A stretch of 35,219 bases of DNA from Parcubacteria group bacterium GW2011_GWA2_51_10 (GTDB lineage: Bacteria; Patescibacteriota; Minisyncoccia; Phycocordibacterales; UBA2100): positions 1 through 35,219 of the forward strand of contig LCQS01000003.1 of the NCBI GenBank assembly GCA_001004265.1. Direction: 5' to 3'. This document shows positions 3,507 through 34,262 of the stretch, in pieces. The first letter of the stretch is position 1. The number at the start of each line of letters is the position of its first letter. The translations under genes and the position numbers were made by a program. The notes beneath the pieces are model-generated. The model had not been told where the DNA came from and did no database searches. It saw only the letters and a list, made by a program, of their open reading frames with translations.

Positions 3507-3941
3507 ATGTTCTTCTACGCAACCATCGCTGCCATACTTGTGTTGACGGTTCTCGTCTACCTTCTCAACCGAGCGAATTTCTTCCGCGTGTGCTCGATCT
3601 GTGCGGGCATTGCAGGGGTATGGATCGGCCTTGTAGTATTGCGCCTTGCAGGACGGTCAGTAGACCCAGTCGTTCTCGCGCTCCTCCTCGGTGGCTCTGT
3701 CGTGGGCGCTATGTACCTCATTGAGAAAGAAGCCCACGAACTGCATCTGTATCAGAAAACTGGACTCGTTCTTGCAGGATTCGCAGGCGCATACGGTATT
3801 GTCGTCGAATCATGGGTAGAAGCTGCGCTCGGCATCCTCGCCTTCGCGCTGCTCTACATGCTTGTGCGCCGCGGTACGGGAAGGCACGATGCGGCACCCG
3901 CGAATAAAGATCTCATTAAAAAAATGGAAGACTGCTGCTGA
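3507..3941 (+). CDS. Membrane protein of unknown function with CxxC and C-terminal CC
   Basis: ORF of 144 aa immediately downstream of the CcdA-like gene; VCSIC and ...KKMEDCC. Confidence 0.65.
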   Translation: MFFYATIAAILVLTVLVYLLNRANFFRVCSICAGIAGVWIGLVVLRLAGRSVDPVVLALLLGGSVVGAMYLIEKEAHELHLYQKTGLVLAGFAGAYGIVVESWVEAALGILAFALLYMLVRRGTGRHDAAPANKDLIKKMEDCC

Positions 3942-3970
3942 CAGACAGGCTTCCGTAAACTTCTAACACA

Positions 3971-4849
3971 ATGGAACAGTCGACAGAGGAAAACATTAAG
4001 CAACACATTATACCGTGGGCGGCCATAGTTGCTGTTGCCCTCTTCTTGGGATTGTGGCTTTCAGGGCAGGATATTTCGGCAAGAGCCGCACAGGCCTTTC
4101 CCAGCAGCGCGCAGTGGTCGGAGTCACTTCCGACACTCTCAATCGAGTGGGGTGACACGGGCAGAAAATTAGTAGAAAGTGGTGCAATTGATCCGGAAAA
4201 ATTCGAGCAGCTCTACGAAGAGCGAGGAGGCCTTTCGACAGAAGAGCGCGCTCTCTTGTACGAGGATAGCGGCGCTGTTGTCGTCACGAAGGAAAACGCC
4301 GGCGTTTTTTTGAATCTTTTGTGGGCCGTCGGCATTGCGAACGAAAATCCAATCCTTTTCGATCCAGACGAAATGATGAACCCGGTATATGCGAATGCGG
4401 GTTCGCCAGCTAGCGGATTCGCCTCAACGGGCGGCTGGACGCTCGCGCACGGAAGCGCAATGAATCACTACGGGAAACACTCGATCATTTCGCTTACACC
4501 GCATCAGCAGAAGCTCGTTGATGACGTGTCGCGAAATATCTATCGTCCATGCTGCAACAATTCAACGCATTTTCCGGACTGCAATCACGGCATGGCGATG
4601 CTCGGCCTCTTAGAGATTCTCGCGAGCCAAGGAGCGAGCGAGGAGGAAATGTATTCGGCCGCACTCGCTGTAAATTCGCTCTGGTTTCTAGATGCGTACG
4701 ATACGATCGGTGCATACGCGAACGAGAAGGGGTTGCTGCTCTCGCCACAAGAAATGCTATCCGCTTACTATTCGAGCGCATCGGGATTCGCGAAAGTCGC
4801 CGAGCAGGTTTCCACGCTGCGGCAGGGTGGAAGCTCTTGTTCCGCGTGA
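3971..4849 (+). CDS. Conserved-looking hypothetical protein, N-terminal TM anchor, Cys/His-rich central motif
   Basis: 292 aa ORF; NIYRPCCNNSTHFPDCNHGMAMLGLLEI motif. Confidence 0.75.
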   Translation: MEQSTEENIKQHIIPWAAIVAVALFLGLWLSGQDISARAAQAFPSSAQWSESLPTLSIEWGDTGRKLVESGAIDPEKFEQLYEERGGLSTEERALLYEDSGAVVVTKENAGVFLNLLWAVGIANENPILFDPDEMMNPVYANAGSPASGFASTGGWTLAHGSAMNHYGKHSIISLTPHQQKLVDDVSRNIYRPCCNNSTHFPDCNHGMAMLGLLEILASQGASEEEMYSAALAVNSLWFLDAYDTIGAYANEKGLLLSPQEMLSAYYSSASGFAKVAEQVSTLRQGGSSCSA

Positions 4850-25307: not shown

Positions 25308-26024
25308 ATGCCATTGATCGTCGTCGAACAACTTGAGAAGACGTATTCGGAAGGCGATATTGTGACGCCAGTCCTCCGCGGCATATCGCTTGCAATCAAT
25401 AAGGGGGAATTCGTGGCCATCATGGGGCCAAGCGGCTCCGGAAAATCCACCCTCCTGCACATTCTCGGATTTCTCGACACACCCACGGCCGGCTCGTACC
25501 GTTTCGACGGGAAATCCATCGAGGAGCATTCAGAAGAAGAATTGGCGCGTGTACGCAATAAGAAATTCGGTTTTGTATTTCAGGCTTTCAATTTACTTCC
25601 ACGAACATCGGTTCTGGAAAACGTAAAATTGCCGCTCCTTTATTCCGGCGTCAACGAGGGAGAGTGGGATGCTCTTTCGCGACAGGCAATCGGCGCTGTC
25701 GGCCTCTCGCACCGCGCCGAATATGAGCCGTCACAGCTTTCGGGAGGCGAGAAACAGCGTGCGGCGATTGCTCGAGCGCTCGTGAATACGCCGCAAGTGA
25801 TTTTTGCAGATGAGCCAACCGGCAACTTGGATTCGAAATCCGGCGAACTCGTCATGGGGACAATTCAAAAAATGCACCAGGAGCGGGGTCATACGATCAT
25901 TCTTATCACACATGAGACGTACACGGCGGAATATGCAGAGCGCATCATCCGGCTCAAGGATGGCCGTATCGAAAGTGATACGAAAGTAGCGAATCGCCGA
26001 ACGGGTGATTCGTTTGTGAAGTAG
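25308..26024 (+). CDS. MacB/LolD-type ABC transporter ATP-binding protein
   Basis: Walker [11 protein letters not shown]-loop [31 protein letters not shown], Walker [13 protein letters not shown]. Confidence 0.96.
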
Positions 26025-26026
26025 AT

Positions 26027-27265
26027 ATGACAATAAAGCATATCATCAAGAGCTCGGTCGTTGGTCTCAAGACTAATAAAACTCGTTCCGCCCTTACGAT
26101 CCTTGGCATCGTGATCGGCGTGACGGCAATCATCATGGTCGTCTCGCTCGGGCAGGGCGCACGGAATCTCATTCTCGGACAGATTCAGGGTATCGGCGCG
26201 CGCGTGATTGCGATCGTGCCGGGACGTATTCCCAAAGGGCCGACTGATATTCTTGCGACACTTACCGCCTCTCTCAAAGAGCGCGATCTGTCAACGCTAA
26301 AGCGAACAGAAGATGTTCCGCACGCCGAAGAAATAATGCCCGTTGTTTTTGGAAGTGAGACAGTGTCATTTGAGGGCCAAACGTATCGTCCTACGATATT
26401 CGGAGGCACTGAACTCATGGCAGAGATTTATGACGTGTATCCCGAACGCGGGCGAAATATCTCGGAGGACGATGTGCGTGCCGCGGCGGACGTTGTAGTG
26501 CTCGGCACAAAGGTGTTAGAAACGCTTTCACCGGATCGCGATCTATTGGGCGAGCGCGTAAAAATTAAAGGCAGGAATTTTCTCGTGATCGGGATCTTGC
26601 CGAAAAAAGGCGCCGCGTCTCTCTTTAATTTCGATGACATGGCGATGGTGCCCTACACGACGGCACAGCGCTACATATTCGGAATTAAGCACTACAACCG
26701 CATCATTATCCAAGCAGATTCAGAAGAGCATGTCGCCGCGACAGTGAACGACGTGAAGGCGGCGCTACGCGCGGAGCACGGCATAACTGATCCCGAAAAA
26801 GACGACTTTGCCGTAGAAACGCAAACTGATGCCATACAAACGGTTAGCACGATCCTTAGCGCGCTGACTGTGTTTCTTGCGCTCGTCGCGGCGATATCGC
26901 TCGTTGTCGGCGGGATCGGGATCATGAACATCATGCTCGTTTCGGTCACCGAGCGCACGCGGGAGATAGGATTGCGCAAAGCGCTCGGCGCGACGAACAG
27001 AAATATTCTTGCTCAATTTCTTCTCGAGGCAGTAATCCTGACGGGTATCGGCGGGCTCATCGGCATTCTTCTCGGAGCATTGCTTTCATTCGCGATATCG
27101 CTCGTCATAACAAATGCGTTCGGTCTCCTCTGGTCGTTCACCTTCCCGATATTCGCGGCGATTCTTGGAATAGGTGTATCAAGCGCTATTGGTCTCATAT
27201 TTGGCTTGTACCCCGCACGAAAAGCCTCACGCATGAATCCTATCGAGGCACTGCGATATGAATAG
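26027..27265 (+). CDS. MacB-type ABC transporter permease
   Basis: NKTRSALTILGIVIGVTAIIMVVSLGQGA; GGIGIMNIMLVSVTERTREIGLRKALGAT; PARKASRMNPIEALRYE*. Confidence 0.95.
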   Translation: MTIKHIIKSSVVGLKTNKTRSALTILGIVIGVTAIIMVVSLGQGARNLILGQIQGIGARVIAIVPGRIPKGPTDILATLTASLKERDLSTLKRTEDVPHAEEIMPVVFGSETVSFEGQTYRPTIFGGTELMAEIYDVYPERGRNISEDDVRAAADVVVLGTKVLETLSPDRDLLGERVKIKGRNFLVIGILPKKGAASLFNFDDMAMVPYTTAQRYIFGIKHYNRIIIQADSEEHVAATVNDVKAALRAEHGITDPEKDDFAVETQTDAIQTVSTILSALTVFLALVAAISLVVGGIGIMNIMLVSVTERTREIGLRKALGATNRNILAQFLLEAVILTGIGGLIGILLGALLSFAISLVITNAFGLLWSFTFPIFAAILGIGVSSAIGLIFGLYPARKASRMNPIEALRYE

Positions 27266-27320
27266 ACAGATCACCATTCGATAATGGCGCCCATCTCACT
27301 GGCTTTCATACGGGGCGGGT

Positions 27321-27374
27321 CCTGCTCGTCGCGCCTCAAAGCTCAATCCCATTGAAGCTCTGCGGTACGAATGA
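27321..27374 (+). pseudogene. Orphan C-terminal tail of a second MacB-type permease (PARRASKLNPIEALRYE*)
   Basis: In-frame tail with own stop, 55 nt after the intact permease stop; no start codon/upstream domain in frame. Confidence 0.85.
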
Positions 27375-27386
27375 TAAGATCTCGCA

Positions 27387-27776
27387 ATGCCCGACTTCGA
27401 CAAATTTTTCAGCGACTACGGCAACATCGTGAAGCCCGCGCTTACGGTGCTCGCAGCGCTAGTGCTTTTTATGATTTGGTTTTTTTCGACGCAGGATATG
27501 CCGTCGGTGAATGTGGCAGAAGACAATGTAGCGACAACTGTACAGAGCGGCAGTACCGAGATGCAGACATTTCGATGTCAAAGCGGAAAAACAATCAAGG
27601 CTCTGATTTCTGCAAACGAAGCGCAACTGGAACTTTCGGATGGGCGCGAGATCATCATCCCGAGATCTGGTTCGCAATACGCCAATCCCGATGGAAGTTT
27701 CATTTTTTCGAGGGCAGGCAATGCCGCAACGATACGTGAAGGCGGCAGGACTACGTATACGTGTTCCTCTGCGTGA
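27387..27776 (+). CDS. MliC-like (membrane-bound lysozyme inhibitor of c-type lysozyme) domain protein
   Basis: N-terminal TM; FRCQSGKTIKALISANEAQLELSDGREIIIPRSGSQYANPDGSFIFSRAGNAATIREGGRTTYTC resembles the MliC domain. Confidence 0.65.
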   Translation: MPDFDKFFSDYGNIVKPALTVLAALVLFMIWFFSTQDMPSVNVAEDNVATTVQSGSTEMQTFRCQSGKTIKALISANEAQLELSDGREIIIPRSGSQYANPDGSFIFSRAGNAATIREGGRTTYTCSSA

Positions 27777-32020: not shown

Positions 32021-32128
32021 ATGGCAATTTTCAAAATACGATCAGAATTCAATCCAGAAGGTGAGCTCAGTACCATGAGTCCTGCGGACTTGGCTACAGG
32101 GCGAGACGCATTGGACCCGAGAGTATGA
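32021..32128 (+). CDS. 35-aa small ORF overlapping uvrB start (ATGA)
   Basis: MAIFKIRSEFNPEGELSTMSPADLATGRDALDPRV*; TACAGT exactly 6 nt upstream; stop overlaps uvrB ATG at 32125. Confidence 0.45.
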   Translation: MAIFKIRSEFNPEGELSTMSPADLATGRDALDPRV

Positions 32129-34149
32129 CATCAGCGACTGTATTCAACCTAAAGAGTGATTTTAAGCCTGCGGGGGATCAGCCGCAGGCAATTGAGGCTC
32201 TTTATCAGGGTCTTAAAGAAGGCAAGCGACATCAGACGCTTCTCGGCGTCACTGGCTCCGGTAAAACGTTCACCGTCGCCAATGTTATCGAGAAGTGGCA
32301 GAAACCGACGCTTGTTATCGCGCATAATAAAACACTTGCCGCGCAGCTCGCGGCGGAATATCGGGAATTTTTTCCAGACTCCGCAGTGCACTATTTCGTT
32401 TCCTACTACGATTTCTATCAGCCTGAAGCATATGTTCCCGTGTCGGACACGTACATCGAGAAGGAGGCGGACATCAATGAAGATATCGAGCGGCTGCGTC
32501 ACGCCGCCACGCAGGCCCTTCTCTCGCGCAAAGATGTCATCGTGGTTGCTTCTGTTTCTTGCATTTACGGGCTCGGCAGTCCTATCGAATATGAAAAGGT
32601 GAACCTAAAGTTGAAATTGGATGAACCCTGTACTCGCGCAGAACTAACACGCCGACTCATCGGCATGTATTTTGATCGTGTGAAAGGGGATCTAACTCCA
32701 GGCACTTTTCGTGCCCTCGGTGCACGGGTTGAAATCATGCCGGCGAATGAACGCACTATATATCGTGTCGATTTGTCGCAGGGGAAAGTTTCGAAAATCG
32801 ACGAGATCAATGCGATAACGCGAGAAATCTTGACGGCTGTTGATTCGGTATTCATCTTTCCTGCGAAACACTACGTGACGCCGAAAGGCATCCAAGATGC
32901 AGCGCTTGCCGACATTGAATTCGAGCTCGACGAGCAATTGAAGCGATTCGAACGCGCTGGAAAGATTTTGGAGGCAGAGCGCTTAAAGCGCCGAACGCGG
33001 CAGGATATAGCGATGATACGGGAATTTGGATTCTGCAATGGTATTGAAAATTATTCACGGCATTTTGACCGGCGGAAGCCCGGCGAGCCGCCCTATACGC
33101 TTCTTTCGTATTTTCCTAAAAAGGCAGACGGATCGCCGGACTTCCTCACTGTCATAGACGAGTCGCACGTCACGGTGCCGCAAGTTGGTGCGATGTACGC
33201 TGGGGATCGCGCGCGTAAGGAAACGCTTGTCGAGCACGGGTTTAGACTTCCGAGCTGTGTTGATAACCGGCCACTCACGTTCAAGGAGTTCGAAGTGCGT
33301 ATTGGCGAGACGCTTTACACGAGCGCAACACCCGGCACGTATGAGTTGGAGCGTAGCGGTAAACCAATAGAGCAGGTAATACGTCCCACTGGCCTCATCG
33401 ATCCGGAAATTATCGTGCGTCCCATTGTGAGCGGGAGCGACTATTCCGGACAGGTGAAGGATTTTATACGCGAAGCGGAGGAGGTGACGATGCGCGGAGC
33501 GCGCTCAATGGTTACCGTTCTTACCAAGAAAATGGCCGAAGATCTGACAGCGTTTCTCACCGAACGGAATGTGAAGGCGAGCTATATACACAGCGACGTA
33601 AAGACCATCGAACGCATCGAAATACTCACTAACTTTCGGAAAGGCGTGTTCGACGTCCTTGTCGGCGTAAACTTACTGCGAGAGGGCTTGGATTTGCCGG
33701 AGGTGGAACTTGTCGCAATTCTCGATGCCGATAAGGAGGGATTCTTGCGAAGCGAAACATCGCTCATCCAAACAATCGGACGCGCGGCGCGCAATGTGCT
33801 GGGCCGAGTGATCCTCTACGCGGACACAGAGACAACCTCGATGGAGCGAGCTATCGGGGAGACGAATCGCCGTCGAAAGAAGCAGATAGCGTACAATACA
33901 AAGCACGGCATCACGCCGCAGACGATCAAGAAAAAAATACGAGACATCGTCGGAGACATCGAAAAGTCGAGAAAGAGGGCTATCAGCGATTTGGCTCAGC
34001 TCGATACGGAAGCGTTCGGCGGGAATAAGAAGAAACTGCTTTCTGCAAAAAAGGCGGAAATGCACGATGCGGCAGATCGGCTCGACTTCGAGACGGCCGC
34101 AATGTTACGAGACGAGATACGTGTACTGGAATCACGAAAATCATCATGA
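32125..34149 (+). CDS. uvrB: Excinuclease ABC subunit B
   Basis: FKPAGDQPQAIEAL, GVTGSGKTFTVANV, SYYDFYQPEAYVP, GVNLLREGLDLPEV, C-terminal UVR motif. Confidence 0.98.
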   Translation: MTSATVFNLKSDFKPAGDQPQAIEALYQGLKEGKRHQTLLGVTGSGKTFTVANVIEKWQKPTLVIAHNKTLAAQLAAEYREFFPDSAVHYFVSYYDFYQPEAYVPVSDTYIEKEADINEDIERLRHAATQALLSRKDVIVVASVSCIYGLGSPIEYEKVNLKLKLDEPCTRAELTRRLIGMYFDRVKGDLTPGTFRALGARVEIMPANERTIYRVDLSQGKVSKIDEINAITREILTAVDSVFIFPAKHYVTPKGIQDAALADIEFELDEQLKRFERAGKILEAERLKRRTRQDIAMIREFGFCNGIENYSRHFDRRKPGEPPYTLLSYFPKKADGSPDFLTVIDESHVTVPQVGAMYAGDRARKETLVEHGFRLPSCVDNRPLTFKEFEVRIGETLYTSATPGTYELERSGKPIEQVIRPTGLIDPEIIVRPIVSGSDYSGQVKDFIREAEEVTMRGARSMVTVLTKKMAEDLTAFLTERNVKASYIHSDVKTIERIEILTNFRKGVFDVLVGVNLLREGLDLPEVELVAILDADKEGFLRSETSLIQTIGRAARNVLGRVILYADTETTSMERAIGETNRRRKKQIAYNTKHGITPQTIKKKIRDIVGDIEKSRKRAISDLAQLDTEAFGGNKKKLLSAKKAEMHDAADRLDFETAAMLRDEIRVLESRKSS

Positions 34150-34208
34150 ATCGAAATAGTCTGCAAACGAGTCGATGCCCCGTAGTCAGCTTGCTGTACT
34201 TCTGGGGC

Positions 34209-34262
34209 GAGACGGCTGCAATGTTAAGGGACGAAATCAGGGTCTTGGAGGGTAAAAAATAG
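34209..34262 (+). pseudogene. Orphan C-terminal tail of a second UvrB (ETAAMLRDEIRVLEGKK*)
   Basis: Matches intact UvrB C-terminus ETAAMLRDEIRVLE 14/14 aa with 8 synonymous codon differences. Confidence 0.9.

Follow-up and report, generated by a model that had tools for sequence, protein, structure and literature searches.

A second 3′ end behind the permease gene

The locus studied here raises a simple question: why is an intact MacB-type permease gene followed, a short distance behind its stop, by what looks like a second version of its own 3′ end? The locus lies in the window, by which we mean the whole stretch of 35,219 nucleotides that was analysed, and comprises the following features.

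25308..26024, + strand: ABC-transporter ATPase gene (LolD/MacB type), the permease's upstream partner (ORF, translation)
26027..27265, + strand: MacB-type permease gene, intact (ORF, translation)
27212..27265, + strand: intact permease 3′ end, PARKASRMNPIEALRYE and stop (sequence, translation)
27266..27320, + strand: spacer, whose minus strand holds a putative palindromic element in degenerate form (GCCCCGTAtgaaaGCCAG; comparison with G013 and G024)
27321..27374, + strand: putative displaced older permease 3′ end, PARRASKLNPIEALRYE and stop (last 17 codons plus stop, reading CCTGCTCGTCGCGCCTCAAAGCTCAATCCCATTGAAGCTCTGCGGTACGAATGA)
27387..27776, + strand: small-protein gene before lysS, with one membrane stretch predicted by eye (ORF, translation)

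Walker A, ABC signature and Walker B motifs are present in the translation of the first gene, whose LolD/MacB type was named by eye and not by profile search. The figures given for the two ends by an earlier, sequence-only reading of this DNA hold on re-reading. The gap between the permease stop and the remnant is exactly 55 nt (27266-27320), 14 of the 17 residues are identical, and in the NPIEALRYE stretch six of nine codons differ, every change being synonymous. The remnant was also said to abut the next gene, which is loose, as the next long ORF begins 12 nt further on, at 27387. In the other direction, the remnant frame is open further 5′ (WLSYGAG, then PARRAS).

Orthologues of the permease were found in 27 of 41 relatives, and G013, G019 and G022 likewise have the small gene between permease and lysS. 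The remnant is present behind the orthologue in two other genomes of the genus, G013 and G024, where the spacer is partly conserved, and is absent in G019 and G022. The nucleotide identity of the tail pair is 54/54 in G013, 42/54 in G024 and 35/54 in the present genome (G000). The full identity of the G013 tails calls for recent homogenisation or a separate event. Placing both permease tails phylogenetically by nucleotide identity gave no signal, the sites being saturated.

Gene-end pairs in the genome and in relatives

The sequence-only reading had proposed a recurrent replacement process, detectable as further tail fragments behind intact genes and in the substitution pattern of the pairs. 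In the genome (711,659 bases in 25 contigs, one of which is the window; 79% complete), every ORF 80 codons or longer was scanned for a match between its last 45 codons and the 450 nt that follow. The scores were 88 for the permease, 72 for uvrB, 66 for C4:39982 and 59 for a YqeY-like gene (C13:12137), against a maximum of 46 in one round with shuffled downstream DNA; tandem-repeat genes also scored and were excluded by eye. An excess of gene-end pairs over shuffled controls was found in relatives as well as in the genome itself, and the pooled pairs gave pN 0.185 against pS 0.86. Recurrent replacement is a fair name for the process.

A palindromic element between the two ends

In most pair loci, a hairpin with the consensus GCCTGCCCCGTAGCC-stem-GGTACYGGG lies between the intact end and the leftover. 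The spacers of the C4 and C13 pairs and of the uvrB tail in G017 have GCCCCGTAGC-stem-TGGTAYYGGG or a near form in common, and the palindromic repeat occurs at several unrelated loci, with seven strong matches to the covariance model R1 in the genome itself. In an alignment of 51 copies, all pattern-matching and of one length class, 98.5% of the cells at the 14 base pairs are paired, and two-sided changes number 109, compared with 31 in shuffles. Because the copies were chosen by pattern, the invariant outer columns are partly built in, which does not hold for the covariation of the inner stem. No Rfam family matched at the hairpins.

The pattern was found in 30 of 52 genomes of the genus, with none for the reversed-pattern control; across the class it is sparse, at 17 of 384 genomes. 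A stricter pattern searched in the genomes of 85,462 species retrieved 51 stretches, all from records titled Patescibacteria or from MAGs of unnamed bacteria. The named records belong mostly to Ca. Kaiserbacteria, with other Patescibacteria besides, and one of them, CP066682, is titled a chromosome. This distribution bears on the idea that the second ends are an assembly artefact or stem from a mixture of strains. An incomplete assembly in 25 contigs leaves some room for it, but orthologous structures occur in separate assemblies and the element family is found in many independent MAGs and in CP066682, so that we regard this explanation as highly improbable. Moreover, misassembly at the permease is unlikely because G013 and G024, which are separate genomes, share the remnant behind the orthologous gene. 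The sequence-only reading was to be given up if the genome held no other tail pair and both sites proved misassembled; further pairs were found.

Several variants were seen beside the main form. At C21:2337-2373 of the present genome stands a variant hairpin, CCCCGCACC...GGTGCTGGGG, whose GTA/TAC step, invariant in other copies, is altered by paired changes; the family thus includes looser members. A second type of hairpin, CCCCGTTAGAAGC-GTA-GCTTCTAACGGGG, directly adjoins the main one at L195 and L197 of G024. Viral contigs from IMG/VR (L316-L324) hold a related hairpin of lesser length, CCCCGTAGCTCCGGGAGATGGTACCGGGG and then TGAGAG, and some contigs have it as an inverted pair.

In-frame insertion into native gene ends

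Comparison with relatives that do not carry the element showed that it is an in-frame insertion of about 39-45 nt with native codons on both sides. At the dnaE start (L270 and L242), ATGGCGAGCCGCTTCATCCAC is followed by the element, CTCCACAC and then the new start, while element-free relatives read, for example, ATGGCCTCGCGATTCATCCACCTCCACACG. The tail of rny gives the same picture at a gene end (L262 against the empty relative L273). More generally, the native protein resumes in the three codons beyond the element, with 61 of 126 residues identical over 42 loci against a mean of 9.4 and a maximum of 22 in shuffles; these loci had been preselected by the duplication filter and for phase 0, and the shuffles were drawn from the same loci. 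Thus, at dnaE and rny, the leftover is the older end of the same gene, as had been read from the permease locus, where we infer the same.

The element also lies in frame inside dnaG, leuS, dnaE, rarA, rnhB and sufC (named by eye from translations) with no duplication, which indicates that the insertion can exist alone. At L188, one copy seems to be inserted in another, in frame near a sufC-like start (PSTTGLRAGYPSTTQAATGHGGAG). The orthologous element stands near a gene start at L246 and L247, from two species of one genus, and one of the two loci has about 112 nt more, slightly downstream, which makes the pair well suited to timing the events.

Protein-level duplication flanking the element exceeded the control maximum of 48 at 14 of the first 78 copies. 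When exact position and frame were added to the filter, 62 of 126 copies qualified, a fraction that depends on the filter; as its low-scoring members qualified by position and phase, the 62 is the outcome of a filter and no independent estimate. The data were already in view when thresholds, controls and the good-pair filter were chosen, and several search patterns preceded the final one. In the filtered set, 30 loci are of the start type and 28 of the tail type, and starts are thus hit as often as tails. At qualifying loci, for either gene direction, the hairpin has the intact gene on its 5′ side and the leftover immediately against its 3′ end. Junctions of the tail type keep codon phase. Of the sequence-only reading, the recurrent replacement of gene ends is supported; it missed the gene starts and the in-frame palindromic element between the ends.

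An RNA gene appears to be affected too. In a tRNA-Thr-like gene that is apparently split (C10:1-300, minus strand, and L227), the order is 5′ piece, complete tRNA-Thr between inverted repeats CCCCGTTAGA...TCTAACGGGG, hairpin and 3′ piece; this looks like an RNA-gene version of the displacement of gene ends.

The uvrB locus

The nearest parallel to the permease lies in the window itself, at uvrB:

32021..32062, + strand: displaced uvrB start, MAIFKIRSEFNPEG (read from sequence)
32065..32106, - strand: palindromic element at the uvrB start (R1, 13.9 bits, E 0.24; relaxed hairpin search)
32125..34149, + strand: uvrB, intact (ORF)
34173..34208, + strand: palindromic element at the uvrB tail, degenerate (R1, 10.7 bits, E 1.3)
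34209..34262, + strand: displaced uvrB tail, ETAAMLRDEIRVLEGKK and stop (sequence, tail scan)

The two elements are the best R1 matches of the window, but weak ones; the equivalent place at the uvrB tail of G017 scores 41.1 bits. Start-type leftovers of uvrB in L230, L254 and L303 end on the same terminal codon as the remnant at 32021-32062. The two loci had been called structurally identical; the same arrangement does recur 7 kb away, and uvrB has an element and a remnant at both ends. Its two elements suggested that whole genes could move as cassettes between inverted hairpins, an idea that we dropped, as partner hairpins are rare (51 loci, up to 8 kb).

It could be that both copies of an end are in use and under selection, the leftover start serving for initiation and coupling translation to the intact gene, or the leftover tail ending a small ORF. 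In about 10 of 28 start-type loci, the stop of the leftover ORF overlaps the intact start (ATGA), and an ORF that begins in the uvrB stop of the present genome crosses the hairpin and enters the old tail. Junctions of high-scoring pairs fall nearly always at a codon boundary, and the old ends of glyS keep their protein sequence across species (L286, L291 and L297). All these observations would suit such a use, but most of the other tail-type leftovers have neither a start codon nor a fixed frame relative to the gene, and an old shared device is disfavoured by the sporadic presence among relatives. We consider it unlikely that selection on both copies is the explanation. Two general rules tried in this connection were likewise abandoned: a bridging ORF was seen behind uvrB, where most other tail-type leftovers lack a start codon, and the frames of the leftovers relative to their intact genes show no preference.

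Does the permease spacer belong to the family?

The permease spacer is the less obvious case. The covariance model R1 gave no match at 27266-27320 in the present genome and a weak one, of 11.8 bits (E 0.61), in the spacer of G013. A conserved stretch, GGCTTTCATACGGGGC at 27301-27316, is found at the orthologous place, exactly in G013 and in a close form in G024. Read by eye on the minus strand, the spacer has GCCTGCCCCGTA in G013 and GCCTGCCCGGTA in G024, after which come GCC and TACYG, the internal loops being enlarged. The reading frame of the leftover also encodes SYGAG (G000 and G013) or SYRAG (G024), for which canonical copies oriented this way have GYGAG. From its position, this partial sequence match and the orthologues, the permease copy is probably a degenerate member of the hairpin family. 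Compared with the usual copies, it is turned round relative to the leftover. As a conserved motif of its own (2 mismatches), GGCTTTCATACGGGGC was rejected, since only the permease loci look real and the remaining matches look like chance.

For the permease taken by itself, the leftover might instead be the stump of a deleted tandem paralogue, outside the hairpin family. Tandem MacB-type permeases do occur in the taxonomic order (G035 C10), and the failure of R1 to find a hairpin in the spacer here fits this explanation. However, uvrB, at a distance of 7 kb, and many single-copy genes of the same clade show the same arrangement, and the spacer partly matches the family at the exact boundary, in common with G013 and G024. 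A tandem stump is thus, in our judgement, very unlikely.

Old and new ends differ in their codons

Intact and displaced ends agree at the protein level in 396 of 527 codons (75%). Among 375 degenerate codons, 142 are common to both ends, where 143.8 are expected from codon usage. In a simple scenario, the insertion would be a plain duplication of its target, with one copy functional and the other decaying neutrally. Some pairs are indeed nearly identical beside the junction, with 37/39 nt at L260 and 22/23 nt at the noncoding L170. These few pairs indicate that short tracts may be shared when the event happened. In a neutral copy, protein sequence and codons should nevertheless erode at the same rate, whereas here codons are random while the protein is 75% identical, and differences are mostly synonymous even in pairs of at least 80% nucleotide identity (20.5 synonymous against 9.5 non-synonymous). 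Neutral duplication is therefore disfavoured and appears quite unlikely. At the synonymous differences, new ends are A+T-richer in 26 pairs against 11, a weak trend.

At dnaE, the displaced end has the relatives' codons and the first 12 codons of the new end do not, later codons being ordinary. This 12-codon patch (ATGAGCCGTTTTGTCCATTTACACACTCATAGTCAT in L270) shares 2/10 and 1/10 codons with two empty relatives, against a baseline of 7/11 between the relatives and 9/11 and 8/10 in the next window. Such a patch, re-spelled to either side of the insertion site and no further, would be predicted by a drive-like element of about 40 nt: the native end would be cut or invaded, and only a re-spelled, non-matching end would escape, so that every insertion would bring a protected rescue copy with it, as in a natural cleave-and-rescue analogue with no nuclease gene in the element. 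We find this scenario improbable, and the codon differences, random and not maximal, give it no particular support. Local re-spelling was rejected as a general rule, as it is clear in dnaE alone; EF-Tu is suggestive with no clean baseline, and rny and EF-G are uninformative on a local foreign patch.

Our preferred reading, held with somewhat better than even confidence, is an in-frame palindromic insertion followed by re-creation of the gene end from a diverged allele, the interrupted end being left as debris. First, GCCTGC with the covarying hairpin would insert in frame in a native gene end, a step seen in the hairpin family and presumed for the permease copy. A new, uninterrupted end would then, in what is the likely order, arise between the element and the body of the gene. 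As the new end encodes about the same residues with unrelated codons, it would most likely come by recombination, with one loose junction, from a diverged uninterrupted allele. The interrupted old end, made of a few native codons, the element, the remaining codons and the old stop, would stay outside and decay. Several observations count against this sequence of events: the same insertion codon is used in distant species at uvrB, dnaE, ychF and glyS, R1 misses the permease element in the present genome, that element has the reverse orientation, the two permease tails of G013 are identical, and a local foreign patch is clear in dnaE alone.

Comparison with known systems

Imperfect hairpins with GTAG near the 5′ foot are reminiscent of the REP/BIME sequences that go with RAYT transposases. 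REPs are extragenic, whereas the Patescibacteria hairpins are few per genome, have no linked transposase and are inserted in coding sequence (58 of 126 copies are unassigned). No RAYT-type transposase flanked by repeats was found: the sole Y1_Tnp match of the incomplete genome, C2:21523-21780, is adjoined by no convincing hairpin, and a relaxed hairpin search gave one weak candidate on C2, at 20411, in a list near control level (32 against 19). As for MITEs, near-identical flanking repeats were seen at two noncoding copies, L170 and C11, and the search for a parental transposon covered Y1_Tnp only. In the C11 case, at about 3900-4000, the hairpin-like GCCCCGTAGCCAGC beside a YidC-like gene has on either side of it a copy of a nearly identical, noncoding repeat in direct orientation, about 36 nt long.

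The proposed second step, with a homologous junction on one side and a loose one on the other, resembles homology-facilitated illegitimate recombination and the curing of mobile elements by transformation; a locus can be restored by foreign DNA that is uninterrupted (PMC3240628, PMC4795794). In contrast, the interrupted end would here stay behind, repeatedly and within about 80 nt.

A further parallel is offered by the mORFs of fungal mitochondria, in which a foreign-looking inserted end is accompanied by the displaced native end; for atp6 of Glomus, identity between the ends is 63.5% at the DNA level and 91% at the protein level (PMC3630166). The atp6 genes of Glomus and Allomyces share with our loci the body, the C-terminal end of similar protein and diverged DNA, the mobile element and the displaced native end matching relatives. 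Both a foreign-looking end and a displaced native end were found at dnaE and rny by comparison with empty relatives. A homing endonuclease lies between the ends of mORFs, whereas the examined loci have no endonuclease ORF there and only the hairpin of about 40 nt with spacers of about 10-60 nt. Moreover, gene starts are also affected here and the hairpin also occurs alone inside genes. The two systems thus work alike, and ours is not a member of the other.

The Rickettsia palindromic elements (RPE) are about 150 bp long, form ten families and are in many cases in frame in ORFs (PMC10969869). Like the present elements, they are short palindromes that sit in frame in conserved genes of unrelated kinds and encode a recognisable peptide, and RNA genes are also hit, as in the tRNA-Thr case. 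Ours have 39-45 nt, another sequence and another phylum, so that we call them RPE-like and claim no membership of RPE proper. About half of the Patescibacteria copies also adjoin a second, re-spelled gene end, which to our knowledge is not known for RPE. In the partial open-access literature, we found no paper on such elements in Patescibacteria/CPR, which is weak evidence of novelty. For annotation, conserved-gene starts and stops are accompanied here by plausible false duplicates. Since hairpin, old end and new end are adjacent, the sequence lets one read in what order events took place, where the new end came from and how old each insertion is. Altogether, with these elements the range of in-frame palindromic insertions would reach beyond Rickettsia into Patescibacteria, and the gene-end displacement of fungal mitochondria would have a bacterial counterpart.
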